NCBI GenBank assembly: GCA_949987705.1
Contig: OX465283.1
Coordinates: 73,479,720 to 73,543,719, forward strand
Source of the DNA: Thereva unica
Taxonomy: Eukaryota; Arthropoda; Insecta; Diptera; Therevidae
Direction: 5' to 3'
DNA: 64,000 bases
Position numbers and translations under genes: made by a program. Positions 8,028 through 62,707 of this stretch are shown piece after piece (positions within the stretch are counted from its first letter, which is position 1; each line of letters begins with the position of its first letter). Below the pieces are notes generated by a model. It did no database searches. It was not told where the DNA came from and saw only the letters and a program-made list of their open reading frames with translations.

Positions 8028-8277
8028 TTTGAAGGCAGGAAAAATACGGAAACAAGGAAGGAAAAAGCACAATTGCGCTCCGGTTTTAACACAAATGTGG
8101 CAATAAAAGTGGTAATAAATACTAGGCCACCAGAAATACGGGTTCGGATTAAGGATCTAAGCGGATAATTTAAAATAACCGGGAGCTCTACGCAAGCACG
8201 TCTACTCTGTGGACATCATCTCCGAAATGAATAGTGCCCCAATTGTAGATCAAAAGGAAAACGAGGAGGAAGGATAA

Positions 8278-11997: not shown

Positions 11998-12576
11998 TGA
12001 GCCGAAGTTTTTCCATTTAAACCAAATAAGGCTCGACCGAATGTTATGACATTTTTTTCCGGACTTTTTTTCGTTAATATTCTGCTCTCGGCCCCTCAGA
12101 GAAGTCTATATAGTTTTTGGTTCGCGCGATATCGTGCATGTACAAAATTCACTTACGCCGCTTAAACAAAAAAACGGCCTGACCGAATTTTATGAAAATC
12201 TTTTCAGATCATATTTCGGTTAATACGATTCGAACGACACCTCAACGAAGTCGATATCGTTTTTGGTTCGCGCGATATCGTGCAGGAAAAAATGACCACA
12301 TCCGTACGCACACACACACACATATACTTCCACCCAATTTTTTGCTTAAAATGGCTCTGGGACCTTGAAAGATGAAAATACATACATACATACGTCGAAA
12401 ATTTCGATTTCGATTTTCGGACCGATTACAATAACTTCCTATACTGGGAAGTTAACAATGTTTAAGAAAAAAATACGGAATTAAAAAATGCAATAAACTC
12501 AAAATAATCGAATGTGCAATTAAGCAAAAATACTTAAAGCCGGCCCTGTATATAACCTGCCAACATCATATCCTAA

Positions 12577-18229: not shown

Positions 18230-18740
18230 TGAAAACACCGAAAGCAATGCGCGCAACCATTGGCAGACGAACAAGACAAGCAAGACGACAACAACCACGA
18301 AGCCAAACTGAAGAAGTACGCGAAGCACATATTGAGCTCACGTTGCACTAGCTCTCTGGTTCTTCCGGAATAGAAGCGACGCTATTAGAAAGAGGACGTA
18401 CTGTACAATCCACACTTAACATGCAACATCAGTCACCCGCGTTTAGAAGAACTGTTGATTGAATGCAAGCAAACTGATTGTTTGGGACGAGTATACAATG
18501 GCGAACAAGAAATCAATTGAGGCACTAAACATCCCACTACATGATATTCATCATCATATCCAACGCCGTTGGCGGTCTAATCAACATCTTTGGCCAATAA
18601 CATGGCAGGAGACTTCAGACAAACGTTACCAGTTATTCCCTGTGGGACTGCTGCATCAGCGTTGTGGAAGCACATAACAATATTGTTGTTGACCACGAAT
18701 ATGAGAGTTCAGCTTAAACACGATCAAAGTGAAATTGTTA
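18230..18740 (+). pseudogene. Helitron Pif1-like helicase relic, 5' part
   Basis: Conceptual translation gives LIVWDEYTMANKKSIEALN, then in a shifted frame AGDFRQTLPVIP and LTTNMRVQL. These are the Walker B and downstream helicase motifs of Helitron Rep-Hel proteins (WDE, GDFRQ, TTNMR). Arg/Gln-rich sequence at 18235-18330 may be the N-terminal leader of such a protein. Frameshifts and the insertion at 18741-21205 destroy it. LEIKGKL, resembling the next helicase block, continues at 21206. Confidence 0.8.
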
Positions 18741-21205
18741 TAGAGGAAGAGCCAGCGACATATTTTGGGTTGTCATTTCATTAGTCATGAAAATTTCCAC
18801 ACTGAATCTTATACACCTGCTGAACAATAAAAGCCAATTCTGGCAGCCCCCAGTGGCCGGAATGTAGTACCCTAAAATTACAAAGGGGGTAGGAAATAAA
18901 GTTCAATTTTGTTATAGTATTAGTCATGAATTTTCAGGAGATTGTTTTTGATGGTATTCTCTATTTATAAAAATTATTGCCAGAACATTTCCCCTTCACC
19001 AAAGTGCCGCCAGAACGCTGTAAATATTCATTTAATAAAACGCTATTTTTGTTATTTCATTATAGTTGAGTCGTCAGAGTCAGACTAAATGTTAACTGAC
19101 GAAACTTTTTCTAAAAATATAGTTTTTCGTGAGTAGAATATGTTAAAAAGAGTTTCGGAAAATTGGTTGTACGCTACCCCTAAAAAACCCCCTAAAAACA
19201 GAAAATTTCGTTTTTGGCTAATATCTCTTAAACGGTAAGTCCTATCCTAAAATATTGTTTACAAAGTTTGTAGATCATGCAATTATCTACAAAAAATGAT
19301 AGTATACATTTTCCCGTGCGAATCGCCGTTCATGAGATATCGCCGTTTTAAAGATTTAAAATACTCATCCCCTAATTCGCAACTTGTATAGGTCGCCAGA
19401 CGTTCAATAAATCCTCTGTTGCACTACGTGGCTAATATTTTCAGGGATGATTCCAGGGTGGTTTTGGAGAGAAAAATTGTTCTACAGAGGGGGAATTAAA
19501 AAGTGTGATCTAAATCCCAAAATTCTTCGTTTTTTCAGAAAAATTCCAATATTTTAGCATTTTGGTCATATTTTGAACCTACATAACTTGTGAACGGAGT
19601 CACTCAAGTTCCTTTTCTAAATATCATATAAAATAATACACATTTACCTAAAAGATGAACCTAATTACATTCATCATTGCGCTCCTTTAATCCCTCATGG
19701 GACATAGGGCGGAAACAGTTGCCCTCCAGCGGACTCTGTTTTGCGCGACAGCTCTCAGCTCCGACCAGGATCTCGCAGTTGTTGCGGCTTCTGCTAGTAG
19801 GGTTCTCCTCCACGTTGTTCTAGGTCTTCCGACTCGACGGGATCCTTGCGGATTCCAGTCGAGGGCCTGTTTGGATAGATTTTCGTTTTGGCGTCGCAAG
19901 GTGTGGCCAACCCAATTCCATTTCCTTCGTCTTATTTGGTCATCTATCCTTTCTTGGCCGGCACGGCGCCATAGTTCTTTGTTTGAAATTCTATCCTGCC
20001 AGCGGATTTTTAGGATTCGACGCAGGCATCTGTTGATGAAGACTTGTAGGCGCCCTGTGATGAATTGGGTGACTTCCCATGTTTCGCAACCGTATAAAAG
20101 TACTGCCTTAACGTTGGAGTTGAACAGCCGCAATTTGGTGTTAGTTGAGATCTCCGTTGATCTCCATATGCGGAACAGGCATGCATATGCGCCTCGTGCT
20201 TTATTTATTCTGGAACTGACATCTTCTTCTGCACCACCATTTTCGGTAATAATACTACCGAGGTAGCAGAATTTATCGACCAGTTCCACGTCACGGTTAT
20301 TCAGCGCAGTCCGTTCAATGGTGTTTGCATTTATCCGCATTACATTGCTCTGCGATAATTCGTCTAGGAGTTATTCAACTTTAAGTAAATATTAAAAAAA
20401 TACATTTTTTTCTTTCGTAAACACCCTGTATCGTAGTGGATAGTGGGGATAGCCCCCTCTGTAGAACAATTTTTCTCTCCAAAACCACCCTGGAATCATC
20501 CCTGAAAATATTAGCCACGTAGTGCAACAGAGGATTTATTGAACGTCTGGCGACCTATACAAGTTGCGAATTAGGGGATGAGTATTTTAAATCTTTAAAA
20601 CGGCGATATCTCATGAACGGCGATTCGCACGGGAAAATGTATAATATCATTTTTTGTAGATAATTGCATGATCTACAAACTTTGTAAACAATATTTTAGG
20701 ATAGGACTTACCGTTTAAGAGATATTAGCCAAAAACGAAATTTTCTGTTTTTAGGGGGTTTGTTAGGGGTAGCGTTCAACCAATTTTCCGAAACTCTTTT
20801 TAACATATTCTACTCACGAAAAACTATATTTTTAGAAAAAGTTTCGTCAGTTAACATTTAGTCTGACTCTGACGACTCAACTATAATGAAATAACAAAAA
20901 TAGCGTTTTATTAAATGAATATTTACAGCGTTCTGGCGGCACTTTGGTGAAGGGGAAATGTTCTGGCAATAATTTTTATAAATAGAGAATACCATCAAAA
21001 ACAATCTCCTGAAAATTCATGACTAATACTATAACAAAATTGAACTTTATTTCCTACCCCCTTTGTAATTTTAGGGTACTACATTCCGGCCACTGGGGGC
21101 TGCCAGAATTGGCTTTTATTGCTCAGCAGGTGTATAAGATTCAGTGTGGAAATTTTCATGACTAATGAAATGACAACCCGAAAAACGTTGCTGGCTCTTG
21201 GTCTA
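18741..21205. mobile_element. TAG...CTA element with ~750-bp inverted arms
   Basis: Arms 18741-~19495 and ~20450-21205 are inverted copies of high identity. Termini are TAGAGGAAGAGCCAGC and, inverted, TAGACCAAGAGCCAGC. A 3-bp duplication TTA is at 18738-18740 and 21206-21208. It interrupts a Helitron helicase relic, whose reading resumes beyond the right end. The loop contains an RTE 3' fragment. Arm sequence (CTTAAACGGTAAG, GTAGATCATG, TATCTACAAAAAATG) resembles the subterminal arms of 28393-34468. No transposase. Confidence 0.85.
19672..20338 (-). mobile_element. 5'-truncated RTE insertion (ORF2 C-terminus)
   Basis: The minus ORF at 19687-20340 encodes the RTE C-terminal region: KFCYLGSIIT, LYGCETW, RRILKIRWQDRISN, WNWVGHTLRR and GRPRTTWRR. 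It is flanked by a perfect 8-bp duplication ATTACATT (19664-19671, 20339-20346). It is very similar to 41650-42308 of the full-length copy, implying fairly recent activity. Confidence 0.9.
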
Positions 21206-21208
21206 TTA

Positions 21209-23177: not shown

Positions 23178-24385
23178 TCTCTTCTTTACGCTCCTTTAAT
23201 CACTCATGGGAAACAGTTGCCCTCCAGCGGACTCTGTTTTGCGCGACAGCTCTCAGCTCCAACCAGGACCTCCCAGTTGTTGCGGCTTCTTCTAGTAGGG
23301 TTCTCCTCCACGTTGTTCTAGGTCTTGCTACTCGACGGGATCCTGGAGGATTTCAGTCAAGGGCCTGTTTGGCTAGATTTTAGTTTTCTCGTCGCAAGGT
23401 GTGGCCAACCCAATTCCATTTCCTTCGCCTGATTTGGTCGTCTATCCTTTCTTGGCCGGCACGGCGCCATAGTTCTTCGTTTAAAATTTTATCTTGCCAG
23501 CGGATTTTTATGGTAGGACGCAGGCGCATCTGTTGACGAAGACTTGTAGGCACCCTGTGATGGATTGGGTGAATTTCCATGTTTCGCAACCGTACAAAAT
23601 AACTGCCTTAATGTTGGAGTTGAAGAGCCGCAATTTGGTGTTAGTTGAGACCAGTGTTGATCTCCATATGCGGAACAAGATGCATATGCGCTTCACGCTT
23701 CATTTATTCTGGAACTGACATCTTCTGCCCCGCCAATTTCGGTAATAATACCAACGAGGTATCAGAATTTATCAACCAGTTCCACGTCACGGTTATTTAT
23801 CCCTGTCCGTCCGGTGGTGTCTGTATTGATCCGCATTTCTTTAGTTTTAGTCAGATTAGCCTTAAGCCTGCTGGACTACTTTGCCAAATTGCTTAACATG
23901 TTTTTGATGTCCTGATGTCTGTGGGCCAGCAAACAGATGTCATCCCCGTAGTTGAGATCCTTAAGGCGGTCTAGCAAACCCCATTGTATGCCGCCTATTC
24001 TACTATCTGGAGCGCTGACAAGGATGTGTTTTTTTCCATACGAAATAGAAATAGCGAAAGTAGGCATCCTTGTCTTACTCCTGAACTCACCTCAAAGCTG
24101 TCGGATTATTTTCCATTGTGGAGAACTCTGCATTTGGAATTGTTGTATAGAGCTTTCATTAGTTCAATTATTTTGACAAGCATTCCCCGTTGCCACAATG
24201 CCTGTTATAGTCTAGGAAAGCAAAGTAAAGGGGGGATCGGAATTCAGAAGACTGCTCCACTATGATTCTCAAGGTTTTAATATGGTCTATGCAGGAACGG
24301 CCTTTTCTAAATCCAGGTTGCTGTCTTCTAAGCGTTCTACTGCCTTTCTTATCCTAGATAGTATTGTATGGGACAAAATTACTAC
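23178..24385 (-). mobile_element. 5'-truncated RTE copy (RT core to C-terminus)
   Basis: Minus-strand homologue of about 41050-42308, 3' end at ~23180, 5' truncation near 24385. It contains the RT block around LRIIVEQSSEFRSP and the YGDDICLLA box (Ala to Gly), the latter encoded near 23925-23950. Many indels. It retains CAG at the position where the full-length copy has a TAG stop. It sits immediately after the CR1/Jockey VPQ motif. Confidence 0.85.
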
Positions 24386-28229: not shown

Positions 28230-28711
28230 ATAAGGATAGAGTATGCCCCGAAACCTAGGGAGATCGGAGGTGAGGATTTTCGTTTTGCATGTAAAATAAA
28301 TAGTTCAAAATAAACTAAAATATACGCTCGTATATTAAAATGAACCAAAAAGTAAAAGTAATTTTGAATGTAGCAGTGGCTGCAGCCACTTATAGTCCAG
28401 TCAAATTAGTCCTTAAAATAGAGGTAAGGTTACAATAATTCCCATAGAGCTAAAAATTGGTATGAATGTTCAGAATACCATTCTAAATGAATTGTGAAAA
28501 GTCCCCATCAATCCCCCTTGGGCAAAAAATTTTATCGATGGTGAAAGTTTGCAAAAATAGGTTTTTCGCGTTTTTCAGCTAAACGGTGAGTTTTACAGCA
28601 AAAATAGTTCAGACAAAAATTGTAGATCATCCGATTCTCTACAAAAAATGTATCAACACTTTTTTCCATAAGTATTGCCATTTCCGTGATATAGCGGTTG
28701 AAAGAATTGAA

Positions 28712-30175
28712 AACTAGTTGGGATGTGGGTTTGACCCCTTCGGTCCACACGATTAACTTCCCAGTATGATGAACGAAGATGGAATAAACTGACTTATTAC
28801 AAAATAGTTATACGTTTAGCACTAGTGGACAATTGGCTAGTATCAGAACTGATGACAAAGCAATCCCGAGAGAAGCTAGTTCAAATAACTATAATAGTAG
28901 TAAATCCACAAGCTTTTTCTAGAAAATTTGTTTTTCCTGAACGTTAGCAAACAAACATTTCCTCCGTATTTCGTTCGCTGCACTAAAGCTGGTGTTCAAA
29001 TTCGTATTGAGCGTGCTGAAGCGCCGTTGACGAGCTGAGAAGCGAATGACTTCATTTGGAAATTCCAAAGCTTTCCGGAGATATTATCAAAACTGTAACT
29101 GTTAAGTACTTGTCAGACTTGACCAAAAAGAACAAATTTTACGGTAACTACTGGAAATCCCGGGATGAACCGCAATTTCCTGAAACTGTGTCACGCGTAG
29201 AAAACAATTCCCCGTCAAAAAGTGCTAATCCAAGGTTTGAAAATTCACGCTGTTTGTAAAGGGTAACGAAATTTTTGCAAGATTTTGAAAGGTTGTCGGA
29301 TTTTGACAAGTGATGTTTTGTTCGAAAGCTATCTCTGTGCAGAACCCAAAAAAGATCACTTCGTTTAGAACGGGTCCCATTCCATCGAGTTTATTAGATA
29401 TGTATTAGCAAAACTTGTCTTTCTGACAATTAGCCGAAGTTTTTCTATTTAAACAAAAAAAGGCCCGACCGAATATTATGAAATTTTTTTCAGAGCATTT
29501 CTTCGTTAATATTATTTTTTCGGCACCTCAATGAAGTCGATATAGTTTTTAGTTCGTGCGGTATCGTGCAGGTACAAAAATCATAAACGTCGTTTAAACA
29601 AAAACTAAAACGGTTCCACCGAATTTTATGAAAATCTTTTCAGATCATATTTTGGTTAATACGCTTCGAACGACACCTCAACGAAGTCGATATCCTTTTT
29701 GGTTCGCGCGATAACGTGCAGGTACATAAATCACTTATGTCATTTAAACCAAAAAACCCCTCTACCAAATATTATAAAAATCTTTTCAGATTATATTGTC
29801 GCTAATACGCTTCGAACGGCGCCTCAAGTAAGTCAATATCTTTCGTGGTTCGGGCGATATCGTGCAGGTACAAAAATCACTTACGCCGCTTAAACAAAAA
29901 AACGGCTGGACCGAATTTTATGAAAAGCTTTTCAGATCATATTTCGGTTAATACGCTTCGAACGACACCTCAACGAAGTCGATATCTTTTTTGGTTCGCG
30001 CGGTATCGTGCAGGAAAAAATGACCACATCCGTACGCACATACACACACACACACATAGTTCCTCCCAATTTTTTGCTTAAAATGCTCTTGGGACCTTGA
30101 AACATGAAAATACGTTGAAATTTTCGATTTCGATTTTCGGACCGATTACAATAACTTCCTATACTGGGAAGTTAA
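28712..30175. mobile_element. Repeat E, copy 2
   Basis: Colinear with 10488-12455 but lacking its nested MITEs. The opposite arm of the host element (34140-34170, inverted) is an exact empty site: GAATTG, seven A, TATTTTATT, whereas here the element splits it with 4 A on the left and 5 A on the right. Boundaries are therefore known to within the A run. About four ~146-bp tandem units lie at 29450-30010. The 3' end is the hairpin AACTTCC...GGAAGTT. Confidence 0.88.
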
Positions 30176-30302
30176 AAATATTTTATTCGTAATATGCACG
30201 TTAATGTACTTTTATATACATTTTTGAACCGTTATATGAGTAAATACATGAGTCCCTATGTCTTATACATACAAATTATAAAATTCTTAGAATATAAATG
30301 AA

Positions 30303-31488
30303 CGTCAAAAACTCCTCCCCTATTTTCATTTAGTCGTCATTTAGTAAAAATTCATGTGCAGTGTCGAAAAAATTATACTCGAAAAAGTAGCATTGATGCC
30401 GTGAAAAGACGGCGCTAAGAAGAAGAAGCTGGTTCATCAAAAATAAGTCCTCCTCGTACTAGAGCACGAGTAAGTGAAACTACATTTTGCTTCAACCAGT
30501 GTTGTTTATTTTGCGGCAATGAATTAAATGAAGAGTTGGAGAAGAAAAAAGCACTGCAGTACCGACGTAAGATTTTTAAAGTGACTACACTTTCGTTCAA
30601 AGACAGTATTCTAACTATAGCTAAAACTCGTTGTGGTGATGTAGCCAAAGCTGTTGCTGCTCGAATTGAATTTGAATATGATTTAGTCGCTGCCGAGGCT
30701 AAGTATCATAACGACTGCTACAATTCTTTTCTGAAACCGACCACTATATTGAAAATAGCGATGATTGTCAATTCACATTAGACGAATTGAAAAGTATTTG
30801 TAAAAAATCAACAATAGATAACAGAACCATTAAAATGCGATTGAAGTTGGAGTATGGTGATAGAATTATTATTACAGAAAAATCAGGATCATCAACATTC
30901 GTATGTTTTATTGATAGTCACCATGATATTTTAAATCAAGTTTTTAAAGATAGTAACTCTACTCCAGAAGTTATAATCACTAATGGAATTCGCTTTCTTA
31001 TTTCTATGTACGGAGCTCCAAAAAAAATTACCTGCTTGGATAAGCTCCGATACTTATCTTTTGCAAAAAAAACTTATAATAAAAAACAAGTGCAATTAGC
31101 TTGTCTTCCCCCAACCTCTGCTGCTGCTCAACAACATCTATTCCGGGTATATTATCAAGTTCAAGTGTGGCTTGGTAATAAAATGGATCCAGAAGACTGG
31201 GGTTGGAAGTTAGTTGACAATGCATTGGAACCAATTCATACGTTACTCCCACCTGCACCAGAAAAACTCCTTAACACCATCTTTTGCAATTGCAAAAAAG
31301 GTTGCAATGCTAAATGCGGCTGTAAAAAGGTTGGACTGTTTTGTTCTTTAGCATGCACCAATTGTCAAGGACAGTCGTGCTCCAATGTTGAATCGATACT
31401 AGATGAGGATAATTACGATATCAGTGATGAGACCAGTGGCGGTTCCTCTTTGGAAGCAAAGGAAGCACTGCTTCCCTTGACCAAATAG
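30303..31488 (+). pseudogene. Cysteine-rich CxC-family protein relic, internally deleted
   Basis: Readable blocks in order: HLVKIHVQCRKNYTRKSSID, a CCLFCG zinc-type pair, LVAAEAKYHNDCYNSFL, after a frame change SICKKSTIDNRTIKMRLKLEYGD, then ISMYGAPKKITCLDKLRY, ACLPPTSAAAQQHLFRVYYQ, VWLGNKMDPEDWGWK and the C-terminal cluster CNCKKGCNAKCGCKK...GLFCSLACTNCQG. I recall these as an uncharacterised multicopy animal protein family in which a long central region lies between the LKLEYGD and YGAPKK blocks; that region is missing here. A TAA at ~30414 and a frameshift near 30745 also break it. Function unknown; the C-terminal cluster resembles tesmin/TSO1 CxC DNA-binding motifs. It lies wholly inside the TIR element. 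Confidence 0.7.
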
Positions 31489-31906
31489 ACAACTTCCTAA
31501 AAAAAAATTTAAATATATCAAGATTAATCACAAAAAAAAAACCTTAATATATTTCCTCCTCTGGAAACACTAAAGCTGGAGATATTACAGCTTCCCCATG
31601 TTGTGTTAGGCCATGGTCATGATATGAGCGGCGAGGCCCGGAGTGACAATACTAAAGTGCCTCTCTCAATTTTTCTGACGCTCTTATCGTGCCCGAGGCA
31701 AAGCCTTCTACATTTACAAGCCATGCTGTAGGTGTTAGTATGTCGTTGTATGAAGTCCCAACTTAAATTCCTGAAATGTCAAAATCCCAAGGGAAAGAAG
31801 TGTTTCGTGTCGCGAAAAGTGTTGTTTTTAGTGAGATTTTATTAATAATAATAGGTATTTTATCGAAAGAAAAAAACGTGCAAAAGTGCAAAAAGTGTCC
31901 AGTGTA

Positions 31907-31972
31907 TCTATTAACAACTTATAATTAAGGTGCTAATTTATATTAGCAACTTAATTATAAGTTGTTAATAGA
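31907..31972. repeat. Near-perfect 31-bp stem hairpin
   Basis: TCTATTAACAACTTATAATT at the start has its inverted complement at the end. The stem is ~31 bp with one mismatch and a TTAT loop. It lies ~420 bp downstream of the CxC relic, inside the 6-kb TIR element. No function assigned. Confidence 0.75.
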
Positions 31973-33749
31973 ATCCATTTGCGGAATAAATGTATATGTT
32001 GGTTATGGAGGACTGTCTTATTCTCAAGTTATATCAAAACGTTTTTTGAGATAATGAAGTTGCAGTTAGTTTAATTAATAGGAATACGTGCATTAAAAGA
32101 GACTTTACCTTAAAAAGGGATTAGCAAGTCATTTTTTCAGTGCTGTAATGATAAAGAACGTGCAGATTTTTCGGTTTCATAATAGAATATATACCGATAT
32201 ATTTTACAGTTTTAAGGTGGATTTTGTTAATTAAAGACAGAGAGGAATACAATATGTATTTTTAAGGTTAAACGGCTTGTCTTATCTCGTGAAGCACTGG
32301 AGAATCCAAACATCAGGATATTGTGTTTTTCTATGTAAGGTAATTTGTTTTTCTGTTATATTAAAAACTATTTCTGAGTATAATAATACTTGAAACAGGT
32401 GCAGAACACATTACAGACATCAAGGAACTAAAACGGATTTGAAGCGAACATCACCAAAATGAAATCAAAATTAGTTTTATAATGTTTTTAATATTGTTCT
32501 GTCCCATCTAAGTAATTTTTTAGTGCGTTTGTTTAAATAAGATTCCTTGTATTTATTTTGTTTGTTATTGAAACGAAATAAGAAAGAACATTTGTGTACA
32601 TTTTGAAAGATGTGTTCGAGATTTCGTTTAAGTTCCTAATAAAATTCTTTCAAGAAAATTTTGTTTTAATTAATTCTATTTTACAATTATCAACGTAATA
32701 AAAGTCAACAATCCGGTAAAAAGGTGATGGCAGAAGTAATTTTCCGAATTTATTCCCAAAAAAACCAAATAACCACACTTCGAAGTCCCATGAATCTTTG
32801 AAATTGAAATAATCTGATACATTTGTAGTTTCCTTTATAACTTTTATGATTCTCTTTAATGGTGAGTTAAAGGGATAGAGAATATTTTTTGAATTGTATT
32901 TTTGAGTACGGGCTACCAGAAATGTTATTTTTTTGCAAGGAGAATGTAATGATTGTTGTCGTGGGTGTAGGGGATGTATGCGAGGTATACAATTTTTTTT
33001 TAGTTTTTGAGCCAAAATTATGCATTTGAATGACAAATTAAATTAGTTGAAAGAAGTAGTTGCAGTTTTTCAACGGCTTTTCTTTGGAGGCTTTAATTAT
33101 AATTAAAGCGTGATAATTATAACAGAATCTGAAAAAAGGCGCAAAATTTTGAAAATATTAACGAAAAAATTCGATTTTTTCACTTTTTGAAGTTTTCTTA
33201 TTCATCATCATAAAATAATACTACATTTTAAAAGAGAAAAATCCTCATACGATGCTATGCACAATAATTAAAGCGCAATTAATTTTCAAAATTGAAGTCA
33301 ATTTTTGGGATTTGTATAAGATATTTTGACACAAAATTCTAACCAGTTAGTGTTTATATAGTATAAGTGGACTGAAAAATCCGAAGTTATAAACAAAAAA
33401 CTAAAATTTATGTGTACAAATAAAAATTTCATATTGTAACCGCTGATAGCCAATTTCATAACGAACAGCCTCTTTTTTTGCTTTTTTCGGATCTACACTG
33501 ACCGAGATAAACGCATCTTAATATTTAAATAGAACGACCAAAATGATAAAATTTTCGCAAATTCCAATTCACAAAATCCGATAACTTACGGGATTGGTTG
33601 CTAGAGCTAGAAAATGGCCATTTCGTATAGTATTCGATGTAACTATAACATGTTCCAAACAAAATTTTTTAGACTGCAAACAATTCTTTATGTTTTGCCT
33701 ATCTGACTCCACTATATGTTATTTTTCAGTTTTTTTTATTTAAAGGTTT

Positions 33750-33959
33750 CGATACTTTTACTTTTATCGTTCGCCTTGCGCATTGCTTCCCTTATCCTCA
33801 ATCTTATCAACCGCCACTGGATGAGACATATGATGCATCACTTTTAGAACATATTTGTATCCAGCAGGAAGAGGAGGAAAAAGATGAAGAAAAAGAAGAA
33901 GAAGAAAACGAAGACAATATACTAGAAGTTCCATTGGATTATTATGAATCCGATGAATA
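33750..33959 (+). pseudogene. Acidic C-terminal reading frame (possible terminal exon)
   Basis: An open frame preceded by a polypyrimidine-AG (TTTATTTAAAG) reads HCFPYPQSYQPPLDETYD, then a Glu-rich stretch, then ILEVPLDYYESDE and stop at 33957-33959. The bias looks coding but I recognise no domain. It may be the last exon of a second gene of the TIR element, or chance. Confidence 0.35.
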
Positions 33960-34689
33960 ATTTTTCCAAATTATTTTTTCATTTATATATTACATAATTT
34001 ACGCAGCTTTCATCATTTTCAATACTCCATTTGCATTCAATAGGATCATAATAGCTCGTGGAATAGGCCTACCGGGGAAATCAAGTTAAAAAAAAGCGCC
34101 AAGCACACTACCTCATAGGTGGTGAGGAAACGTGTGCATATTACGAATAAAATATTTTTTTCAATTCTTTCAACCGCTATATCACGGAAATGGTAATACT
34201 TATGAAAAAAAGTGTGGATACATTTTTTGTAGAGAATCGGATGATCTACAATTTTTGTCTGAACTATTTTTGCTGTAAAACTCACCGTTTAGCTGAAAAA
34301 CGCGAAAAACCTATTTTTGCAAACTTTCACCATCGATAAAATTTTTTGCACAAGGGGGATTGATGGGGACTTTTCACAATTCATTTATAATGGTATTCTG
34401 AACATTCATACCAATTTTTAGCTCTATGGGAATTATTGTAACCTTCAAAGTCTTATTTGACTGGACTATTACTTAAATGTAAAAAAGCGTGAGGCGCTAA
34501 CGAAAAGTTCCAGGTAGACCGCCCCATGCTTTTTAACATTCAAAATTATTTTTTACTTTTTGATTCATTTTGATATAAAAGCGTATTTTTTAGTTTTTTT
34601 AAACCATTTATTTTTATTTTCTACTTTTTAGTCTATTACACATTTCAACACTAGTTTTGGTGCCGAGTAGTTGTGTTTTTTATTTAACT

Positions 34690-37449: not shown

Positions 37450-37959
37450 AAGACTAAAAAGCAGATAATAATTATTAGATAAAAAAAACTTTTTAATATA
37501 GCACGTTTTTATAACGAACTAAAAAGAATAAAATAATTCTTCCTAGCCCCATACAGATTTAGAACCTCAAACTTATTCCTAACCCCATACAGATAGTCCT
37601 GAAAATTTGTGATTGTGAATTTGTAATAGCTTTGAAAATATTTGTAAGATTTTAAACGAAAAAACGTGCAGGTCATGCTATAGACTATAGTAGGAGAATA
37701 GAGTAGCTGGGTTGAGAAGTCATTCGCATCAATCATGTATGCGCCCCAAGTTTTTTGGTTTAAAATCTTACAAATATTTTCAAAGCTATTACAAATTCAC
37801 AATCACAAATTTTCAGGACTATCTGTATGGGGTTAGGAATAAGTTTGAGGTTCTAAATCTGTATGGGGCTAGGAAGAATTATTCTTTTTAGTTCGTTATA
37901 AAAACGTGCTATATTAAAAAGTTTTTTTATCTAATAATTATTTTTTACTTTTTAGTCTA
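37450..37959. repeat. ~510-bp palindrome with ~210-bp arms
   Basis: Left arm 37450-37666 and right arm 37749-37959 are nearly perfect inverted copies around an ~80-bp loop. The right terminus reads, inverted, TAGACTAAAAAGTA, the same end as repeat D, and is followed by TTA. The arms contain CCCCATACAGAT twice each. ORF 37509-37736 is a by-product of the palindrome. Confidence 0.85.
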
Positions 37960-39040: not shown

Positions 39041-42000
39041 ATAACGGGGGGGGGCGAACGGCTAACAAAGACCTCGGAAAGTGGTGGCACCCGATTTGTC
39101 ACTGCTGTCAAGATTCGAGGAAAGTCACTGCAGACGAACACCTAGCAGACCTGTTAGCAAGTCCTAATCCCACCTCCCCGCGGTGCCCTCTGGGGTACTT
39201 CTTCGGAAGGAGCTAACGGGAGACGGGCGAATGGCGAGCTCTCTGCGCCACAAAACAGAGTTTTAAGTCGGTTGGGCTGAGGGTTAGCAACCCGCTCCCA
39301 TAAAAAACACCATTGCTACGAATCGGCAAACAATGCCTCGGAACCGGACGGACAACACGACGACGACCTTTGCTTTTCGAACAAGGACACGAATCGGATC
39401 ATGGAATGTGAGAACACTGCTGGCTGAGGGACGGCTGGATGAAGTCCTCAACGAGATGAATCGATATAAAATCAAGATCATGGGACTTAGCGAGACCAGA
39501 TGGCCCGATGCGGGAGAACATATCTGCCCAAACGGTGAGTCCTTCTTATATTCTGGGAGAAACGAAACTGAAAGCCGTAGGAGTGGCGTTGGCGTAATAC
39601 TCACCATAGAAGCCAGGTCCAGCCTCATTAGCTGGTCACCGGTTTCTGAGAGGATTATTACCGTGCGCCTGCGTACCAGACTAAGAAGTACTACGGTAGT
39701 CCAATGCTATGCTCCAACTGAAGACGCAGAAGATGACATCAAGGCCGAGTTCTATATGCGACTGAATGAGGTTTTTCGCTCTATTCCAAGGGGAGACATC
39801 ATTGGTTTAATGGGTGACTTAAACGCTCAGATCGGCCGTGACAACACCGGCCTTGAACACACAATTGGAAACCAAGGCCTAAGCCAAGTTACCAATAACA
39901 ATGGTGAGCTTTTCGTTGACTTTTGTAGTTCCCACCAACTCATGGTAGGTGGAACTTACTTTTGTCACAAGAAGATACACAAAGAGACCTGGGTATCGCC
40001 CGATGGTAGAACGAGAAATCAGATAGATCACGTGGCCGTTAGCCGCAGATGGAGAACTATTCTTGAGGATGTCAGGAGTTTCAGGGGAGCGGATACTGGA
40101 AGCGACCACCATTTGATTGTAGCAACTATTCGCCTTAAAATCGCCGCAATCAGAAACGTGCAACATGATGCTATAACCCGTAGACGGTTTAACGTAGACC
40201 TTCTGCGGGAGAGCGTTAAAAAGCGGGAATTCGCTGGAAACTTTTTAGAATTATTAAACCAGCAAACCGTTTCTGACGACACAAATATTGAGGAATTGCG
40301 GAGTACCACAAAGGGCGCGATATTGACGGCTGCGGAAACAAGCATCGGTTATGTCCAAAGAAACCAGCAACACTGGATCTCAGACACAACCTGGCAAAAA
40401 ATAGAACGCAGAAGGGCCCTCAGGAATAGCGTAAACTCCACAAACGACCCGGAAAGACGTCACCAATTAGAACGGGAATACTCCCAATTACACCGGGAGG
40501 TTAAGAGAAGTGTCCGGCGTGATAAAAGGCAGCAGATAAACGAGCTCGCAGAAAAAGCGGAAAACGCGGCAAACACAGGCAACAGTAAGGTGCTGTACCA
40601 AATCACTAAACAGCTCTCGGGAAAGCACTCTACTAAAAAGCATGCCGTTAAGAGTGCGGATGGAAGGCTGCTGTGCAGCGACGAAGAGCAACTCCAAAGA
40701 TGGAGAGATTACTTCTTCGCCGCCCTGAATGGTACACTTACACAGGAACCTCAGGAAAACAGCAAAAATGCACAGCCAATAAGAATCACCACCCGGGCCC
40801 CATCCAAGACGGAAATAGTAACCGCAATTCATGCGATGGCCAATGGTATAGCAGCTGGGAAAGATGGCATCCCGCCAGAATTGTTGAAAGCCGACTCAAG
40901 CCTCATAGCAGATGCGCTTCAGCCAATCCTAGAAATAGCATTGAACACCTGTACCTTTCCGGAGGATTGGACGGAAGGTATCATAGTCAAAATACCAAAA
41001 AAGGGGGACCTAACAATATGCGACAACTGGAGAGGCATCTGTTTACTATCTACAGTGGGCAAAATTTTGTCCCATATATTACTATCTAGGATAAGTGAGG
41101 CAGTAGACCGAACGCTTAGGAGGCAGCAGGCCGGATTCAGGAAGGGCCGCTCCTGTATTGATCATATTAACACCTTGAGAATAATAGTGGAGTAGTCTAC
41201 TGAATTCCGATCCCCCCTTTACATTGCTTTCGTAGATTATGAGAAAGCGTTCGACTCGGTCAATAGGAGCTTTATATGGCAGGCACTACGGCGAGGTGGA
41301 TTGCCTGATAAAATAATAGAATTGATAAAAGCCCTATATAACAATTCCAAATGCAGAGTTCTCCATAATGGAAAATTATCCGACAGCTTTGAGGTGAGCT
41401 CAGGAGTACGACAAGGATGCCTACTTTCGCCATTACTATTTCTTATAGTAATAAATGATATCCTTGTCGGCGCTCTAGATAATCGAACAGGCGGCATACA
41501 ATGGGGTTTGGTAGACCGCCTTAAGGACCTCGACTACGCCGATGATATCTGTTTGCTGGCCCACAGACACCAGGACCTCAAAAACATGTTGAAGAATTTG
41601 GCAACAGAAAGTAGTCCAGCAGGCTTAAGGCTAAATCCGACTAAAACTAAAGAAATGCGGATAAATGCAAACACCATTGAACGGACTGCGCTGAATAACC
41701 GTGACGTGGAACTGGTAAATAAATTCTGCTACCTCGGTAGTGTTATTACCGAAAATGGTGGGGCAGAAGAAGACGTAAGTTCCAGAATAAACAAAGCACG
41801 AGGCGCATATGCATGCCTGTTCCGCATATGGAGATCAACGGAGATCTCAACTAACACCAAATTGCGGCTGTTCAACTCCAACGTTAGGGCAGTTCTTTTG
41901 TACGGTTGCGAAACATGGAAAGTCACCCAATTCATCACAGGGCGCCTACAAGTCTTCATCAACAGTTGCCTTCGTCGTATCCTAAAAATCCGCTGGCAAG

Positions 42001-42342
42001 ATAGAATTTCAAACGAAGAACTTTGGCGCCGTGCCGGCCAAGAAAGGATAGACGACCAAATCAGGCGAAGGAAATGGAATTGGGTTGGCCACACCTTGCG
42101 ACGCGAAAACGAAAATCTAGCCAAACAGGCCCTTGACTGGAATCCGCAAGGTTCCCGTCGAGTAGGAAGACCTAGAACAACGTGGAGGAGAACCCTACTA
42201 GAAGAAGCCGCAACAACTGGGAGATCCTGGTCGGAGCTGAGAGTTGTCGCGCAAACCAGAGTCCGCTGGAGGGCAACTGTTTCCGCCCTATGTCCCATGA
42301 GGGATTAAAGGAGTTTAAAGAAGAAAGAAGAAGAATAATAAT
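39041..42342 (+). mobile_element. Full-length RTE non-LTR retrotransposon
   Basis: A 3.3-kb element with a 292-bp GC-richer 5' leader opening with a run of G, a single ORF (39333-42308) and a short 3' tail of GAAGAA/ATA repeats. A perfect 8-bp duplication AGGCAATA flanks it (39033-39040, 42343-42350). Fragments of the same family lie at 2232-2455, 19672-20338 and 23178-24385. It is the youngest-looking retroelement in the window. Confidence 0.95.
39333..42308 (+). pseudogene. RTE ORF2 (endonuclease-reverse transcriptase), one in-frame nonsense codon
   Basis: 991 codons in one frame, interrupted only by TAG at 41193-41195 (codon 621). Domain order: APE endonuclease (IGSWNVRTL from residue 21, GLSETRW, MGDLNAQIG, SDHHL); linker; RT with GIPPELLK, NWRGICLLSTVGK, GFRKGRSCIDHI, VDYEKAFDSV (catalytic Asp), SGVRQGCLLSPLLF and YADD at 735-738; C-terminal FCYLGSVIT, GCETW and RWQDRISNEELWRRAGQERI. 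The protein nicks target DNA and copies element RNA at the nick. The stop falls just before motif A, so only an endonuclease-containing fragment would be made. The start follows the leader and is the first ATG in frame. Confidence 0.93.
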
Positions 42343-42614: not shown

Positions 42615-43635
42615 TAAACAGGTTTATATATAGTACAGGATCCATAGAAGAACGGCCTTCACCGATCGAGTAACCGAATGAAATTTATTTCTATCATAAA
42701 AAACATGCTAACAAATGTAACGGTTGCCTAACTAGTCCAATCAATCTACGCAAATCCATCTAATAATTGCCATCAGGAAACAAAAAATATGGTCATATAG
42801 GAAAAAAAATTCTAAAAAAGATAGCGTTTTCTTTTTCTGATTTTGGAATGGCGAACCTAACCTAAAAATTCCGGAAAGTGTAAAAAACACTTTTTAGCGC
42901 ATAAAAGAAAAACGTGACCTCGGATCGAAAAAAATCAAATTATAAAGTTGTAGCTACATATTCAAATTATCTTTCGATTGATGTACATATACATATGTGT
43001 AGATAGATATTGCTAAAGTGAAATGGTTAGTGCAGTCGGTAGGATGGAGTGGAAATCTGCATAAAAATAATTATATTAATAACTAATTTTTTTTTAAACC
43101 CCACCAAATTGTTGAGGCAGGAGCCGCCACTGGCATTTTGACCTCTAGTTATGGGGAATAATTCATTTTTATGTGCAATAGGAGTGGAAGGGATTGATAA
43201 TATATTGATCGATCTCGCAAGCCCAAACTTAATGGTCGTAACCAACTGGGAAATTAATCAAGCGCTTCCAAAAGAAGCAAGAATGTAGCGGTACCAATTC
43301 ATATGTTATTGAAGCTCTCTGGAGGCACGCATTCTATACTCCATCATTGTCTCAAGCTATCTATAAATTCTTTTTACTTATGAAATACTATTTCTGGTGA
43401 AAACAGTAAGTGAAATTTTATTATTGAATTAATGGTGTTTAAAAAATTATTTCAATAAATGCATTTCTGCTATTTGTGAAAGTTTAATTATTGAAAATGA
43501 AAAATTATAAGGGGTTTGATTTCAGCAAAACATCATCAATATTAATATTGATAATATGGGTCACGAAAGCTTTCCAAGAGTTTCAATTTCTCAGCTTCAA
43601 TTGCGCTTCTTCACAACAAAATGTAGAGGCTTCGC
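42615..43635. other. No gene recognised
   Basis: AT-rich, with no domain-bearing ORF and no repeat partner in the window. Confidence 0.45.
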
Positions 43636-43639: not shown

Positions 43640-44530
43640 ATGACATGCTTGTGTTAAAAGGAATTAGGATAGGAATAAGAATCTCGTTGGCATTCCTTTT
43701 CAGCGCATCATAGTATGCTCAGAATATGTTCCCCGCTGGGAAATTCAACAATATTCCACACACAAAACTATCCATAACATGACGTGGCAATCACCAGACG
43801 GGGAACTAATAATCAAATTGACAACGTCCTAATTAAGAGAAGAGGGGCCGCGAGTATACTGGTTGTAAGAATAATGATAGAAGAGTGCTGTGATCGGACC
43901 ACTATATAGTCAAGGTGAAATTGAGACCCGGATAATAACCAAAACGCATAGAGGGAAAACTCAACCAAAATACGATATACATAAGCTAAAACTGGAAGAA
44001 ATAAGAGATGACTACCAGCATGCTGTCGTACAAAACTTGGGAGAGGCAGAAGACCGACCAACATCAACGACAAATGGAAGCAAATCAAAAGCAGCATAAA
44101 GGGGGCAACAGAAAAGGTACTAGACAGACTAGAATTGACTGGTTTGACCATTACTGTAGAGCCGCAATTGAAGAAACCAGAGCCACCGGGAGCACATGGC
44201 AAGGACCCCAAGAGCAAAGATGGAAGTCTTCGAGCAACAAAAAAAAAATAGCAGATAAGCTTTGCGGAAAGAAGAAGAGAGGATATCTAAACAGGTGGAT
44301 CTTACAGATACAGACTTTAATGAAGGGAGAATTAGGCAAGCGTACAAAGGGATTCGAACCCGGGACCTCTGGGACAGCAGTCAGGCGCCTTACCCCTAGA
44401 CTACCAAGGCCCCCTATTAGCAGATCCTGAAAAGATACAAGAAAGGTGGAGAGGGTAATATAGAAACCTATTGAATCCTACTCCCATACTAAACCAGCAG
44501 GCATTTGTAACTCCTCACGGTTTTTGGAGA
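43640..44530 (+). mobile_element. RTE relic, 5' section (continues at 50586)
   Basis: Blocks TWQSPDGEL and NQIDNVLIKRRGAAS (endonuclease end), KTHRGKTQPKYDIHKL, the linker with RIRQAYKGIRT, then DPEKIQERWRG and NLLNPTPILNQQAFVTP, many in different frames. The sequence stops at 44530, where CR1/Jockey copy 2 begins. The next RTE block (KSNKSPGADxIATELLREG) resumes at ~50600. Confidence 0.75.
44343..44415 (-). tRNA. tRNA-like pseudogene or SINE head
   Basis: On the minus strand GGTAGTCTAGGGGTAAGGC (box A-like) and GGGTTCGAATCCC (box B, perfect) are spaced as in a tRNA gene. The T stem and acceptor stem do not pair fully (5' GGGGCCT against a mismatched 3' side), so it is not a convincing functional tRNA. 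It replaces part of the RTE linker coding region. Confidence 0.4.
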
Positions 44531-44722
44531 GTGATGTCCACTGAGTAGACGTGCTTGCGTAGAGCTCCCGGTTATTTTAAATTATCCGCTTAGATCCTTA
44601 ATCCGAACCCGTATTTCTGGTCACCTAGTATTTATTACCACTTTTATTGCCACATTTGTGTTAAAACCGGAGTGCAATTGTGCTTTTTCCTTCCTTGTTT
44701 CCGTATTTCTCCTGTCTTCAAA

Positions 44723-45997
44723 ATGTCGAAATATGCCGAAAGTGCAAACGTTACTTCCGCTAGGGACAGCACGCCCGCCAGCAGTAGCAGGCACACCAGT
44801 AGCACCAGCAGAACGCCCAGATCGACATCAGTGTCAGGCCCTGAAGACAGCTTTGAGCTTCTGGAAAAAAAAGCTTTTATTAAGCTTCAATCGCATGCTC
44901 AATGATCAATTTGCAATCTTCGAGGACCGTCTGAACTCGCTCGAGACTCGCCTTTGTGCTCGCATGGATGAGGTTTATGAAACTTTAAATAATCAAATCG
45001 CAGGGCTGAGAAACGATGTGGAGACTGTGCAACACGACATCGCTGTAGTTTCCAACGAACTTGAGGATCTGCGCCGGCAGTTACGACTCCAGGACCTGGT
45101 CGTTTGCGGCGTTCCGGTGTGTGATAATGAGAACCCGAGGCACATCTTAGATTCACTTGCTTCCATCATCGAGCATGATCTGTCTCCGTACGTGAACGTG
45201 TTCCGGCCGCATCCACGAAAACGTATAAACTCCCCGACTGGCAGTGCTGCGACCCCTAGTCAAAGTCTAGTAATAACAAGTCTTTCATCTTCATACAAAA
45301 TTTTCACCCGGTTGGTTGTGTGCGTGCATATATGAACATCACTGCTGAGCAAAACTCAACGCATACTTCGTGAATTCAGCGAGACAAAGCCAGATTCTGT
45401 CTTTACGTTAAGTATGCAGAATAGAAAAGGAAAGAAAATCAAAATTGAAGTCATCAAAACAAACGAGCAAATATGCACCAATACATTAAGTTTATTCCCA
45501 TATAAACTCATAAAAGTTTAGCCTTTTAGTTGTATGCAAACGCGTATAAAAATGCTGCATTCTCTCTCCGATAGCGTAACATCGTCATTTGAAGAACTTA
45601 TGCATATAGCTGTTCGTCTTTCACTCATTAACCATATGAAGATGAAAGACTTGTTAATTTCTAGACTTTGCCCCTAGCTCGTTTCGTTACTGATTGTTAA
45701 ATTTCCGTCGGCCAACGAACAGCAGGAGTTCCTGAGAAAAGCTCGGCAGCACGGCACTCTCACACTTAACAAATTGAATCTGGGATTCTCATCTGACAGC
45801 GTTGTTCGCTTGAGCGAAGCCTGTCACCAAGAAAACGCCGACATTTATCGTTCAGCTAGAAAACTGCATATGAAGAATTTCTTCACCGCAATTTTACACT
45901 TCAAGGCCGAGTTTTTGTTCAGTTGGATAAAAATCAACGACCTCAAATATTTAGATCAGTCATTGACCTGAATGAAGCCGTTTCTGCCAAGCCTTAG
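44723..45997 (+). pseudogene. ORF1 of CR1/Jockey copy 2, interrupted
   Basis: MSKYAESANVTSARDST start, SSSRHTSSTSRTPRSTS, then a frameshift in a run of eight A residues (copy 1 has six; seven keeps frame). The coiled coil (RLNSLETRLCARMDEVYETL) and ...SPTGSAATPS follow, then a 410-bp insertion at 45261-45670. It resumes with NEQQEFLRKARQHGTLTLN-like sequence and ends ...EAVSAKP at 45997 after another frameshift. Confidence 0.8.
45261..45670. mobile_element. 410-bp MITE, 8-bp duplication (hAT or P type)
   Basis: TIRs of ~36 bp begin CAAAGTCTAG and share TAACAAGTCTTTCATCTTCA, with one indel and few mismatches. Flanks CCCCTAGT and CCCCTAGC form an 8-bp duplication with one substitution. CR1/Jockey copy 1 is uninterrupted at this site (near 7095). 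An 8-bp duplication fits hAT or P superfamilies. Confidence 0.88.
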
Positions 45998-46367
45998 CTC
46001 AGGAAAAGCAATACGGATTTTGGAGCATCCCATTCAAACACCGGGAACGTTGCTAAAGAGCATTCGGTAAATTTTCATTTTCGTCCTCTCTGTTCTTTAA
46101 TTTGTCTTTATAGTTTTTTTTTATTTCATTCTTTTATCCTTTTTATTTTTATTTATTTTTTTTTTTTATACTTTATTTTATTTCGTTCTTTTGTTTTTGT
46201 TTTTTTATTTATTATTTTTATTTTTTATGTTTTTCTATATTTATTAGTCTATTTCTGTCTTATAATGATGGAATATTATTGCTTAATAGTAAAAAATGAT
46301 TTTTCAACTGTACACGTTCTGTTACCTCGCACTGGTGATCTAGGTAGTTAATTTTTACCTTCTTGGC

Positions 46368-48430
46368 ATGAACCAGATTAGAACTTTGCTCAATATTTTC
46401 CAAAGTACGGCTCGTGGATTAAATTTCTGCCACATCAATGCAAGAAGCTTGCGTAATAAAATCGACGAACTGCGGGAAATCTTTCATGGGTCCAACATTC
46501 ATGTCTTACTGGTATCTGAGGCCTCACTACGCGATCATGTTCCTTCAATATCTGTGTCACTGGATGGCTACAGTCTGTTTAGAAACGATCGCAAGGATCG
46601 CCCTGGCGGCGGCGTCGCTGTTTATGTTAGAAACGGTCCCCGGTGTTCCAAGATAAAACACTCCATATCCACCTCTCCTCCACCACACTCCTAATCCATC
46701 CTTATTGGACATCTTCTTCGTGTCAGACATAGGAAATGTTTTGTTCCATAACCAGATCAACCCACCAAGTTATCTTGATCACGACTTCCTATATCTTTCC
46801 CTGAACTTCGCAATCGAGAGCAGCGTGGAAAAACCCCTCTCCTACCGTGACTATAAGGCCATTAACACTCCTGGGCTGTTACAAGAGTGTTCCGCACTAT
46901 CCTGGGACAATGTTTTTCGCATTCGTGACATTGACGACCAAGTAGCACACTTTAGCCTTCTGTGCAAGCACCTGCTCGAGTCATTTGCTCCAATAAAAGT
47001 TAAGAGTATACTTCCCTCTACCTCACCCTGGTTCTCCTCTCAAATAAAACGTCTGAGAGAGAATACCTGATTAGAAGATATAAGAAAAATAAAACTGAAG
47101 CGAATCTCAGGGCCTACAAAGCTATCAGGAATGTAGTTACCTCGACTATCCGCCAAGCAAAACTGAAGTTCTTTTCGGCTAAACTTAGTCCCGCCCTACC
47201 CTCGAAGAAATTTTGGGGTAACGTAAAGAAACTTGGTATCCATGGTGACGTCTGTATACCTCAGAGCAGCCTTACTGCTAACGAACTAAATAACTATTTT
47301 ATCACGATTGCCAACAATACCGGTACCTATCCCCGATCGAGACCAATTGAAAGTAACTTTATCCAGTTCAGTTTTCGCAATGTGGATTACTCTGAAGTTC
47401 ACAAAGCTTTTTACTCTATTAAGTCAGAATCTGTTGGACTTGATAATCTGCCGCCTATCTTCCTTAAGTGCATTTTTCCTGTAATCACCCCCTATATTAC
47501 GTACATTTTTAATAACTGCCTCACAAAATCATACTTTCCACTTCAGTGGAAAAAAGCGAAAGTAATTGCCTTACCTAAATGCAAATCCCCGAACAATGCC
47601 TCTGATTATCGCCCCATCAGTATCCTATGTTTCTTAGGCAAAGTATTAAAGAAATTAATCTCATGGCAAATTCAGGCCTATTGTGAAATGTTGTCTCTGT
47701 TATCGTGTACACAGTCCGGCTTCAGGAAAAGCAGTAGCTGCGAAACTGCGCTGCTAAAGGTAACTACTGACCTTCGAATTGCTCTTGATCGTGTTGAGAT
47801 TACATTTCTGGTGCTTTTAGACTTCAGTAAGGCTTTTGATAGTGTTAGTCATAAGCTTCTTGAAACTAAACTATCAGACTGTCTGGGTTTCTCCCCCTCA
47901 GCCATCTCCTTAATTCGGAATTACTTAAGTAACCGTTTCCAAAATGTGTGGTTTCAAGATTCTATTTCCGATCCATCACCAATTACATGTGGGGTTCCGC
48001 AGGTCTCGATCCTAGGGCCATTACTGTTCAGCATCTACATTAATGACATCTGTAATTCTGTTAAGGATTGCAAACTTCACATGTATGCGGATGACGTTCA
48101 GATTTATTTAAATAGTCCTATGGGATTGGTAGAAAACTGTGTCTATTACATCAACGAGTTGTGAGTTGCACCTAAATGCCTCTAAGTCTTGTTTCATCGC
48201 AATGCGAAGGAGTATGTTAGACCTTACCCTACCAACTGCGAGTCAAGAACCTAGGTGTTTACCTAAACACACAACTAACCTGCTGTGATCAAACCGATCA
48301 TACCTTATCCAAAATTTACAGTAATTTGGGCTGCCTCTGGTTGTTTGCGTCCATTTTGCCTGTAGGTGTCGGTCAAAGCTTATCAAAACCTTAGTTCTCC
48401 CTCACTTCACCTACGCAAACTCAGTTTTCC
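46368..48430 (+). pseudogene. ORF2 (endonuclease-RT) of CR1/Jockey copy 2, broken
   Basis: ATG 46368 (MNQIRTLLNIFQS) precedes FCHINARSLRNKIDEL and GGGVAVYVRNG. About 190 nt of endonuclease present in copy 1 are deleted after KIKHSIS. Then LDIFFVSDIGNVLFHNQI, a frameshift after KRLRENT, and an RT in 47382-48164: DYRPISILCFLGK, TQSGFRKSSSC, LLDFSKAFDSVSHK, CGVPQVSILGPLLF (the usual Gly of PQGS is Val) and YADDVQIYLN. C-terminal KLIKTLVLPHFTYAN is readable near 48375-48420. Dead. Confidence 0.85.
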
Positions 48431-48441: not shown

Positions 48442-50585
48442 GTCAGTCAATGCACGGTTTCCCTAGCAATTTTACCAAACAGCACCGATTAGAACCAAGA
48501 TTTGGGTGTAGGTTCTATTTACCCTCTGCTACAAATTTGTCAATGTGCCGAGGGTTGCTTTGGTGGACGCCGCCTCTTCTCGGGGGTGAATTTATTTAAT
48601 TAAAAATAGGTATGGGAATGGATAGATTTACTAATTCAGACGGTTATTCATGAATAGTTGAAAATAGGTATTTTATGAAAAAATCATTAGGAGTAAAAAT
48701 GTAGCAACAACAGTAAACAAAAAAATACTGAAAATTACTGGGTTCAAAACATCACTAGACCCAATACTAACGGAGTAATAACTTGTTTAAGGTTGGTTCC
48801 TCTTCGTCAAACGCCAAAATCGAAAGTCTTCTACATGAAATATCCAAAAAAAAACATTGAATTTTTCGGGAAAGACTCATAAAACTTTTTTGAAGTGCTT
48901 GAAAAAACCTTTATTTTGATTTTGATGAAGTATCAAAATTATGTGAGTTATGACAAAAATAAAATTGGTTCCTAATTTTTAGGCCCTAAAAAAAGTGAAA
49001 ACATCTCCTAATTACCGCCCCAATTGAAAATGATCGTTGCCACTTTACAATTTACTTTATTTGTGTACTTGTAAAGCCCTTATGACACTCACTTTTTTTC
49101 GGCTGAAAAATCTGCTAATTAGAGTGAGCCGTGATGTTAACATAGGAAATTTAAATTGGAGTGAGTGAAAAACAAATTTGACAAAATTGGAATGGAAAAA
49201 TGGAATTGCCATATATATTCTAGCAGTTCAGCTGGAAAATATGAAGAAAATTTTCAATATTTTTTGACAGTTCTTGATTTTTTAAGTGTGTATGGGTGTG
49301 TGAGCGTGTATTATAAGGTGATAACAGAACACAATTGAGATGGAACTGTCAAAGCTTATTTCAAAAATTATTAAGCTTATGTTATCCTTTTCTCGCAAAC
49401 TCTTTCTACCTTTCTCGTATAATTGGTTTTTCTAGCAGATTTATCAGCCGAAAAAAAAGCGAGTGTCATAAGGGCATAATATGCCCTCAAAATTTGACCG
49501 GTTTAAAGTGCTTAGTTTTGGATAAATTTGAGCTTGAAGTGAAGAGAGCTTTTTGCAAGTTTGCAAAAAATTGCCTTTCTTTAAAAATAACTCAAAAACT
49601 ATGAAAGATACGCTAGAAGTTGTAGGATTTTGGTTCTTTCTGTTTCTGTACGATAAAAATTGAGTAAGATATGGCCGTTTCAAGTTGGCTATGTTCGCAA
49701 ATAGTAACGTTTTCAAGCTGTATCAGCTTAAACCTCTTAAAAAATAAGAGCTTCAACAAAATATGTTTACATCAGCTTATATGTAGCTCTTGAAAAAAAC
49801 CTACAAAATGTATTTTGCAGCTGCAAAAAGGGTTGTTGTTCAACCTGCGGTTGCCGAAGAGTTCTGCAATTCAACTTTTTCAACATGCAGCGGAGACAAT
49901 TGACCGAATAGTTCTCCAATTATTGATCAAGAGAAAACCGAGGAGGAAGAAAAGGATGAGGCAGACTTGGAAAGGAGTGAGGATGAAGAAGAAAACGATT
50001 TTCAATTATGTTTCTTGATTTTTTAAATCAAAAATATATTTATTTTTTTAATAAAAAACTTAAGATCCATAAAAAATAAAATTTTTATTTTTCCTATTTT
50101 TTAAATCAAATTTTAATCAGTAGGGGTTGTTTTTATAGGGCTTGCTTTCATAATGGTTGCAACTAATGTGATGTAATGATAATTAACGCTTGAATCTACA
50201 ATTCTACAATTAGTTTACACCCCTAAAAATAAAAAGCAACCCTCAGCAGATTACAATTTTGAAATAGAGAGTGAGCAGAACCCAAAGAAAAAAAAATTAA
50301 TGGTCTTGGATGTGAAGTATCACGTCCGTATTTTAACGTGACAAAGTCTATTAATTGAACGTGACAACGTCTGTTATTACGTTTTGTATTAATAAATTAT
50401 ATATTTCGAAGCAAATTTTTTTTTGTGTGCGGGACATTTTCACACACGCGTCCTATCTTAAACCGATTTAATAGACGTTGTCACGTCAAAAAAAAGAAGA
50501 AGAAGAAGAAATCCAAATGTTGGTGCAAATTGGTGCTGTTTGGCAGAATTGCTCGGCTTGGCCCTTTTTTCCGTGTACTGGACTA
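48442..50585. mobile_element. TAG...CTA TIR element, copy 2
   Basis: The right end inverted reads TAGTCCAGTACACGG. The left end is decayed (GTCAGTCAATGCACGG). The interior is colinear with 2868-9707 and lacks that copy's hAT and Harbinger insertions, giving empty sites for both. It carries its own 227-bp insertion at 50287-50513. Inverted subterminal blocks CCAAACAGCACC and TTTGTCAATGTGCCGAGGGT / AACCCTCAGCA are visible. Confidence 0.8.
50287..50513. mobile_element. SINE-like 227-bp insertion
   Basis: Absent from the other copy of the host element (9621-9640 region reads ACCCAAATCCAAATTTTGG without a break). The end has a (GAA)n tail like the RTE 3' ends here. Internally GTGACAACGTCTRTTA-type motifs occur in both orientations. 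No target duplication resolved. Confidence 0.6.
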
Positions 50586-55506: not shown

Positions 55507-55527
55507 TAACGAAGCAGCTGAAGTCAG

Positions 55528-62700: not shown

Positions 62701-62707
62701 TATTTTG

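Follow-up and report, generated by a model that had tools for sequence, protein, structure and literature searches.

A deleted, probably AcademX-type transposon in Thereva unica with the relic of a gene for a probable CxC-tailed transposase

A 64,000-nucleotide stretch of the Thereva unica genome (assembly GCA_949987705.1, contig OX465283.1, positions 73,479,720 to 73,543,719; here called the window and numbered from its first base) contains the relic of a gene for a cysteine-rich protein with a CxC domain, lying between long inverted repeats. This raises the question whether the CxC family is a host gene that was picked up by a mobile element or the enzyme that moves the element. With a probability of about 0.83, we conclude that the feature at 28393-34468 represents a cut-and-paste DNA transposon of the AcademX type, in a non-autonomous copy that has suffered an internal deletion and was later hit by two other mobile elements, and that the CxC family is its transposase.

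The feature (6,076 bp) is a real copy of a transposon with terminal inverted repeats (TIRs). Its arms are identical in 328 of 346 alignment columns, and the 18 differing columns, all in the outer part of the arm, include 10 gap columns, nine of them in one gap and the tenth on its own. The arm alignment reached a score of 554 compared to a maximum of 35 for 384 random pairs from the window itself, which remained after removing pairs less than 1 kb apart from the 400 drawn. TTA flanks the element on both sides as a presumed target-site duplication (TSD), and the two flanks joined with a single TTA align straight across a paralogous repeat further downstream in the window with a score of 188, compared to 69 for the best of 300 single-base shuffles. 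As this paralogue carries four extra bases (CATA) at the junction, continuity of the flanks without the element is shown, but the TSD is not proven to the base. A preliminary description of the locus had placed the gene between matching arms of ~340 bp and a TTA duplication, which is hereby confirmed (coordinates in Table 1).

The span of the element given there was likewise correct; its size of 6 kb, however, is inflated by two later insertions. One is a dispersed repeat that splits the left arm. The other is bounded by CAGTGGCGGTT and AACCGCCACTG and flanked by an 8-bp duplication, GATGAGAC. Since hAT elements have 8-bp TSDs and short TIRs of the CAGTGGCG type, this second insertion is called hAT-like by its termini and TSD. 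Subtracting both insertions and one 8-bp duplication leaves by arithmetic ~2.2 kb, which indicates that the copy was already short before the two insertions occurred. The dispersed repeat has, in its other copy, been interrupted in turn by an insertion of ~840 bp with inverted ends of ~33 bp (11157-12001) that contains a 401-bp miniature inverted-repeat transposable element (MITE).

Searches with family proteins (tblastn) located coding similarity to the CxC family from ~30329 onwards. The N-terminal relic matches residues 38-187 of P0118 as well as residues 48-186 and 208-277 of P0117. The C-terminal relic with the CxC domain matches residues 1287-1427 of P0117 at 79% on 30937-31359 and residues 656-826 of P0119 at 77%, the latter match extending to 31452, beyond the start of the hAT-like element. 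Residues 278-1286 of P0117 have no counterpart; the two relics adjoin because the ~1,010 codons between them were lost in an internal deletion near 30937-30954. Further lesions are a stop codon within the N-terminal relic, a shift of reading frame near 30745 and the hAT-like insertion. The relic originally described at 30303-31488 is thus real, and its limits have to be revised at both ends. In particular, 31488 was rejected as the end of the gene, as the last 17 codons of the open reading frame (ORF) ending there belong to the nested hAT-like element, and the C-terminus resumes on the far side of the insertion.

The region deleted in the relic is the catalytic part of the protein, as is apparent from its relatives. 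A first protein search yielded 116 matches (90% clusters), a search for longer relatives 16, and a profile search, which scored the 7,990 candidates with the most words in common, 33 matches among these best candidates. The longer relatives, mostly of 1,382-1,533 amino acids, contain motifs resembling zinc fingers, an RNase H-like core and a nuclease of the XPG/FEN1/EXO1 type (both folds predicted), and the CxC tail. As a check, the preliminary description had suggested looking for an RNase H-like fold in the deleted central region, and such a fold was indeed predicted in a relative: the core of P0157 was modelled with a mean pLDDT (predicted local distance difference test score) of 85.3, and all 13 of its best re-alignments to PDB entries are DDE transposases or RAG1 (P element, Hermes, ISCth4, RAG1). 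The Foldseek search with this model gave no match at E ≤0.001. The three carboxylates (D, D and E) are kept wherever the column is covered, in 36, 38 and 36 proteins, respectively, out of 39 aligned, and all six tested cysteines of the CxC cluster are kept in 29 of the 39. The nuclease piece alone matches PDB entries of the XPG/FEN1/EXO1 type, and the full-length family profile has no match in PDB at E ≤1.

Domain databases contributed little. Pfam and NCBIfam scans of the family gave weak matches only (best E 0.0035), which reached no cut-off where cut-offs are given and were not used as evidence; among them were NYN_YacP (0.0046, two of 12 nuclease pieces), DUF6589 (0.0062, two of five), 5_3_exonuc_N (0.027) and XPG_I (0.054), the last two in one of the 12 nuclease pieces each. 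The sole transposase-named Pfam match in seven long relatives was OrfB_IS605 at 0.038. A precomputed Pfam domain is absent in 31 of 33 long members, and the domains annotated in the two exceptions, P0133 and P0162, do not characterise the family.

According to an alternative explanation, an unrelated TIR element took up the CxC gene from a host on a single occasion, and the gene became multicopy through amplification of this carrier. Transposons sometimes carry host fragments, the gene studied here is a relic without its catalytic region, and most of its relatives are entered in public databases as hypothetical, uncharacterized, unnamed or Tesmin/TSO1-like proteins, with the name 5'-3' exonuclease for two Joint Genome Institute sequences. 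The long members with a predicted DDE-transposase fold, a nuclease domain and conserved D, D and E argue against capture, as does the distribution of the family: 19 of the 116 first-search matches are named Araneus ventricosus, and insects, spiders, a soft coral (Dendronephthya), a clam (Mya) and a sea spider (Nymphon; a fused, partial model) are all represented. One further sequence is filed under a bacterial metagenome-assembled genome; scans of viral and prokaryotic contig collections for the relatives' DNA gave no confirmed relative. Given the DDE and nuclease domains of the long members and a second subfamily of elements in the window that also bears a CxC tail (see below), host-gene capture is disfavoured and appears very improbable.

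Whether the CxC gene and the TAG...CTA termini belong together was evaluated with the other elements in the window. The terminal sequence TAGTCCAGTCAA occurs with up to two mismatches at 16 sites compared to 4.6 expected, a number reached by none of 100 shuffles. Nine inward-facing end pairs were tested. Exactly 3 bp are duplicated at 2868-9707 (AAC), at the MITE at 11352-11752 (AGT) and at the studied element itself (TTA), and the remaining six pairs show 0 or 1 bp. A third related element, at 48444-50585, has a decayed left end and yielded no TSD; 48444 denotes the first base aligning to the second element (2868-9707). CxC-tail relics are present in both the second and the third element, with a best E of 2e-8 in the third, and the two relics share 89% DNA identity over 56 columns. 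These relics, together with a MITE with matching ends, suggest that gene and termini probably belong together. Neither of the two elements has DNA similarity to the studied element below E 0.03, which indicates that two terminal subfamilies carry the CxC gene. All gene-bearing copies in the window are decayed. One point slightly lowers the confidence in the overall reading: the relic at 2868-9707 is weak, with an E of 2e-5 and just one of 39 query proteins matching at E 1e-4.

Further element-like sequences were observed in the window. At 42733-42757, preceded by AAC, lies TAGTCCAATCAATCTACG, an unpaired sequence similar to the TAG termini, and no partner with a matching TSD was found among the tested sites. 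The region 18740-21206 has 754-bp inverted arms that are 98.7% identical, of which ~135 bp resemble the studied element's inner arm at ~70%; with its ends not determined, it was dropped as a related element. LINE-like (long interspersed nuclear element) copies at 4504-8227 and 44522-48077 lie in opposite orientation, are 91-97% identical in matching pieces and by eye contain endonuclease- and reverse-transcriptase-like reading frames; one of them sits inside the second TAG...CTA element.

Taken together, the reader's proposal of a transposase made in the preliminary description is supported, by the predicted DDE fold, the conserved D, D and E and the CxC relics in the second and third elements. 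Its other half, an essential accessory protein, is the less fitting description: the CxC protein is better regarded as a transposase to which an XPG-type nuclease and a CxC tail are fused.

Two further explanations accept a transposon and concern its classification. The first assigns the element to another superfamily with 3-bp TSDs, such as PIF/Harbinger, CACTA or Zator. PIF/Harbinger elements prefer TWA targets, and TTA taken alone would be a Harbinger-type duplication; AAC and AGT, found in two of the three elements with a TSD, show no such preference, and Harbinger was therefore rejected. Nor did any Pfam transposase model of these groups match the seven long relatives, and the fused nuclease fits the description of AcademX. 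As Zator also has 3-bp TSDs according to Kojima and Bao (PMC10045372), TSD length is insufficient to exclude this group; overall, we consider such an assignment quite unlikely. The second explanation keeps gene and termini linked but places them in a separate, undescribed superfamily that resembles AcademX just in its nuclease and 3-bp TSD. This is consistent with the AcademX match being one to a published description, and with a full-text literature search that returned no title or abstract linking Academ, XPG, Tesmin, CXC and transposon or transposase. On the other hand, a DDE core, an XPG-type nuclease and a 3-bp TSD form an unusual set that coincides with the published AcademX outline, which makes a separate superfamily unlikely.

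For an intact AcademX-type relative, the following mechanism is proposed. The zinc-finger-like motifs near the N-terminus and the CxC domain at the C-terminus would probably bind the transposon ends or chromatin. The RNase H-like DDE core, with its fold and residues predicted in relatives, would cut at TAG...CTA and join the ends to a staggered 3-bp target, and the fused XPG/FEN1-type nuclease would probably trim an intermediate with a flap or nick when the element is excised or the gap repaired. Since both catalytic domains are lost in the copy studied here, any movement after the deletion would have required an intact relative in trans. More tentatively, a single polypeptide might combine a P-element/hAT-like DDE transposase, a flap endonuclease and the CxC domain such that the nuclease acts in transposition itself, for example by removing a 5' flap at excised or inserted ends and fixing the 3-bp duplication; we regard this as possible though rather doubtful. 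If true, it would represent a transposase supplying its own gap-repair enzyme.

A large animal protein family listed as uncharacterized, hypothetical or Tesmin/TSO1-like is very probably a transposase family, and recognising it would clear false host genes from arthropod annotations. The signature of TAG...CTA ends, 3-bp TSD, DDE core, XPG-type nuclease and CxC tail would also offer a way to find active copies, and with these to test what a nuclease does within a transposase.

Table 1. Positions of the element, its gene relic, the later insertions and related elements in the window.
Feature	Position	Strand	Remarks
Older repeat, left half (insertion target of the element)	28293-28392	+	matches ~60595-60703
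TSD TTA, left copy	28390-28392		
Left TIR, outer part	28393-28712	+	starts TAGTCCAGTCAAAT; 302/320 columns identical to right arm
Dispersed repeat, later insertion	28713-30173		four 146-bp units; splits left arm; second copy ~10488-12463
Left TIR, inner part	30174-30199	+	26/26 bases identical to 34134-34159
N-terminal relic of CxC-tailed transposase gene	30329-30954	+	stop and frame change; tblastn P0118, P0117
C-terminal relic with CxC domain	30937-31433	+	tblastn P0117, P0119
8-bp duplication of hAT-like insertion, left copy	31426-31433		GATGAGAC
hAT-like later insertion	31434-33819		2386 bp; 11-bp TIR CAGTGGCGGTT
8-bp duplication of hAT-like insertion, right copy	33820-33827		GATGAGAC
Acidic C-terminal tail of CxC protein, to its stop	33820-33960	+	by-eye match to P0020 tail
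Right TIR	34134-34468	-	ends ATTTGACTGGACTA
TSD TTA, right copy	34469-34471		
Older repeat, right half	34472-34614	+	joined with left half, aligns through paralogue ~60595-60814
Second TAG...CTA element	2868-9707	+	TAGCCCAGTCAATGCAC...GTGCATTGACTGGACTA; TSD AAC/AAC; nested LINE-like sequence; weak CxC-tail relic ~4100-4381
401-bp MITE	11352-11752		ends TAGTACAGTCAATCTGT; TSD AGT/AGT
Third related element	48444-50585	+	right end TAGTCCAGT recognisable; CxC-tail relic ~49777-49930

Elsewhere in the window, two related ORFs at 55443-56825 and 62684-63943 (460 and 419 amino acids from stop to stop), each with a stretch resembling a signal peptide and with AAKDTKNWVEG-type tandem repeats, look like a duplicated secreted repeat protein. 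Nearly intact reverse-transcriptase-like frames of a non-LTR (long terminal repeat) element, of 635 and 370 amino acids in one frame with a single stop between them, are located at 39288-42308, and further pieces of this family at 19671-20341 and 23180-24380. A self-complementary stretch of ~500 bp (88%) at 37451-37958 resembles a foldback repeat.

Compared with known systems, the core is structurally closest to the P element and hAT (Hermes) transposases, the best structural matches, with which it shares the RNase H-like core and an extended helical segment preceding the last E; it differs from them in having no match by sequence profile to PDB or by Pfam. P element and hAT transposases generate 8-bp TSDs, in contrast to the 3 bp of the outer element, and are not known to possess an XPG domain. 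The known XPG, FEN1 and EXO1 enzymes are structure-specific nucleases acting in DNA repair and replication, whereas the nuclease described here is fused inside a transposase. The cysteine cluster corresponds to that of Tesmin/TSO1-like CXC proteins, and several members are so named in UniRef; Pfam scans of the family proteins gave no match of the Tesmin/TSO1 CXC type. In fungal KDZ transposons, a CxC-type cysteine cluster is likewise attached to a DDE transposase; the other fused domains and the TSD length differ, and no KDZ-group model was among the Pfam matches of the family.

In the Academ superfamily, the nuclease of AcademX is of the XPG type. The literature searched yielded no description of a C-terminal CxC domain in Academ. 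According to Kojima and Bao (PMC10045372), AcademX has TSDs of 3 or 4 bp and AcademH of 9 or 10 bp, a difference that seems tied to the encoded helicase and nuclease. AcademH, which belongs to the same superfamily in the published scheme, is thus set apart by its helicase and long TSD from the nuclease and 3 bp found here, and no helicase model was among the Pfam matches. With AcademX, the likeness is one to the published outline: a DDD/E transposase with an RNase H-like fold (predicted in relatives), an encoded nuclease, duplications of 3 bp (TTA, AAC and AGT) in all but one of the four elements evaluated, and relatives of ~1,450 amino acids that fit elements of ~5.5 kb, from which the studied copy differs in being deleted and broken. 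Matched by published description, the studied copy is most suitably classed as a deleted transposon, probably of the AcademX type, an already named lineage.
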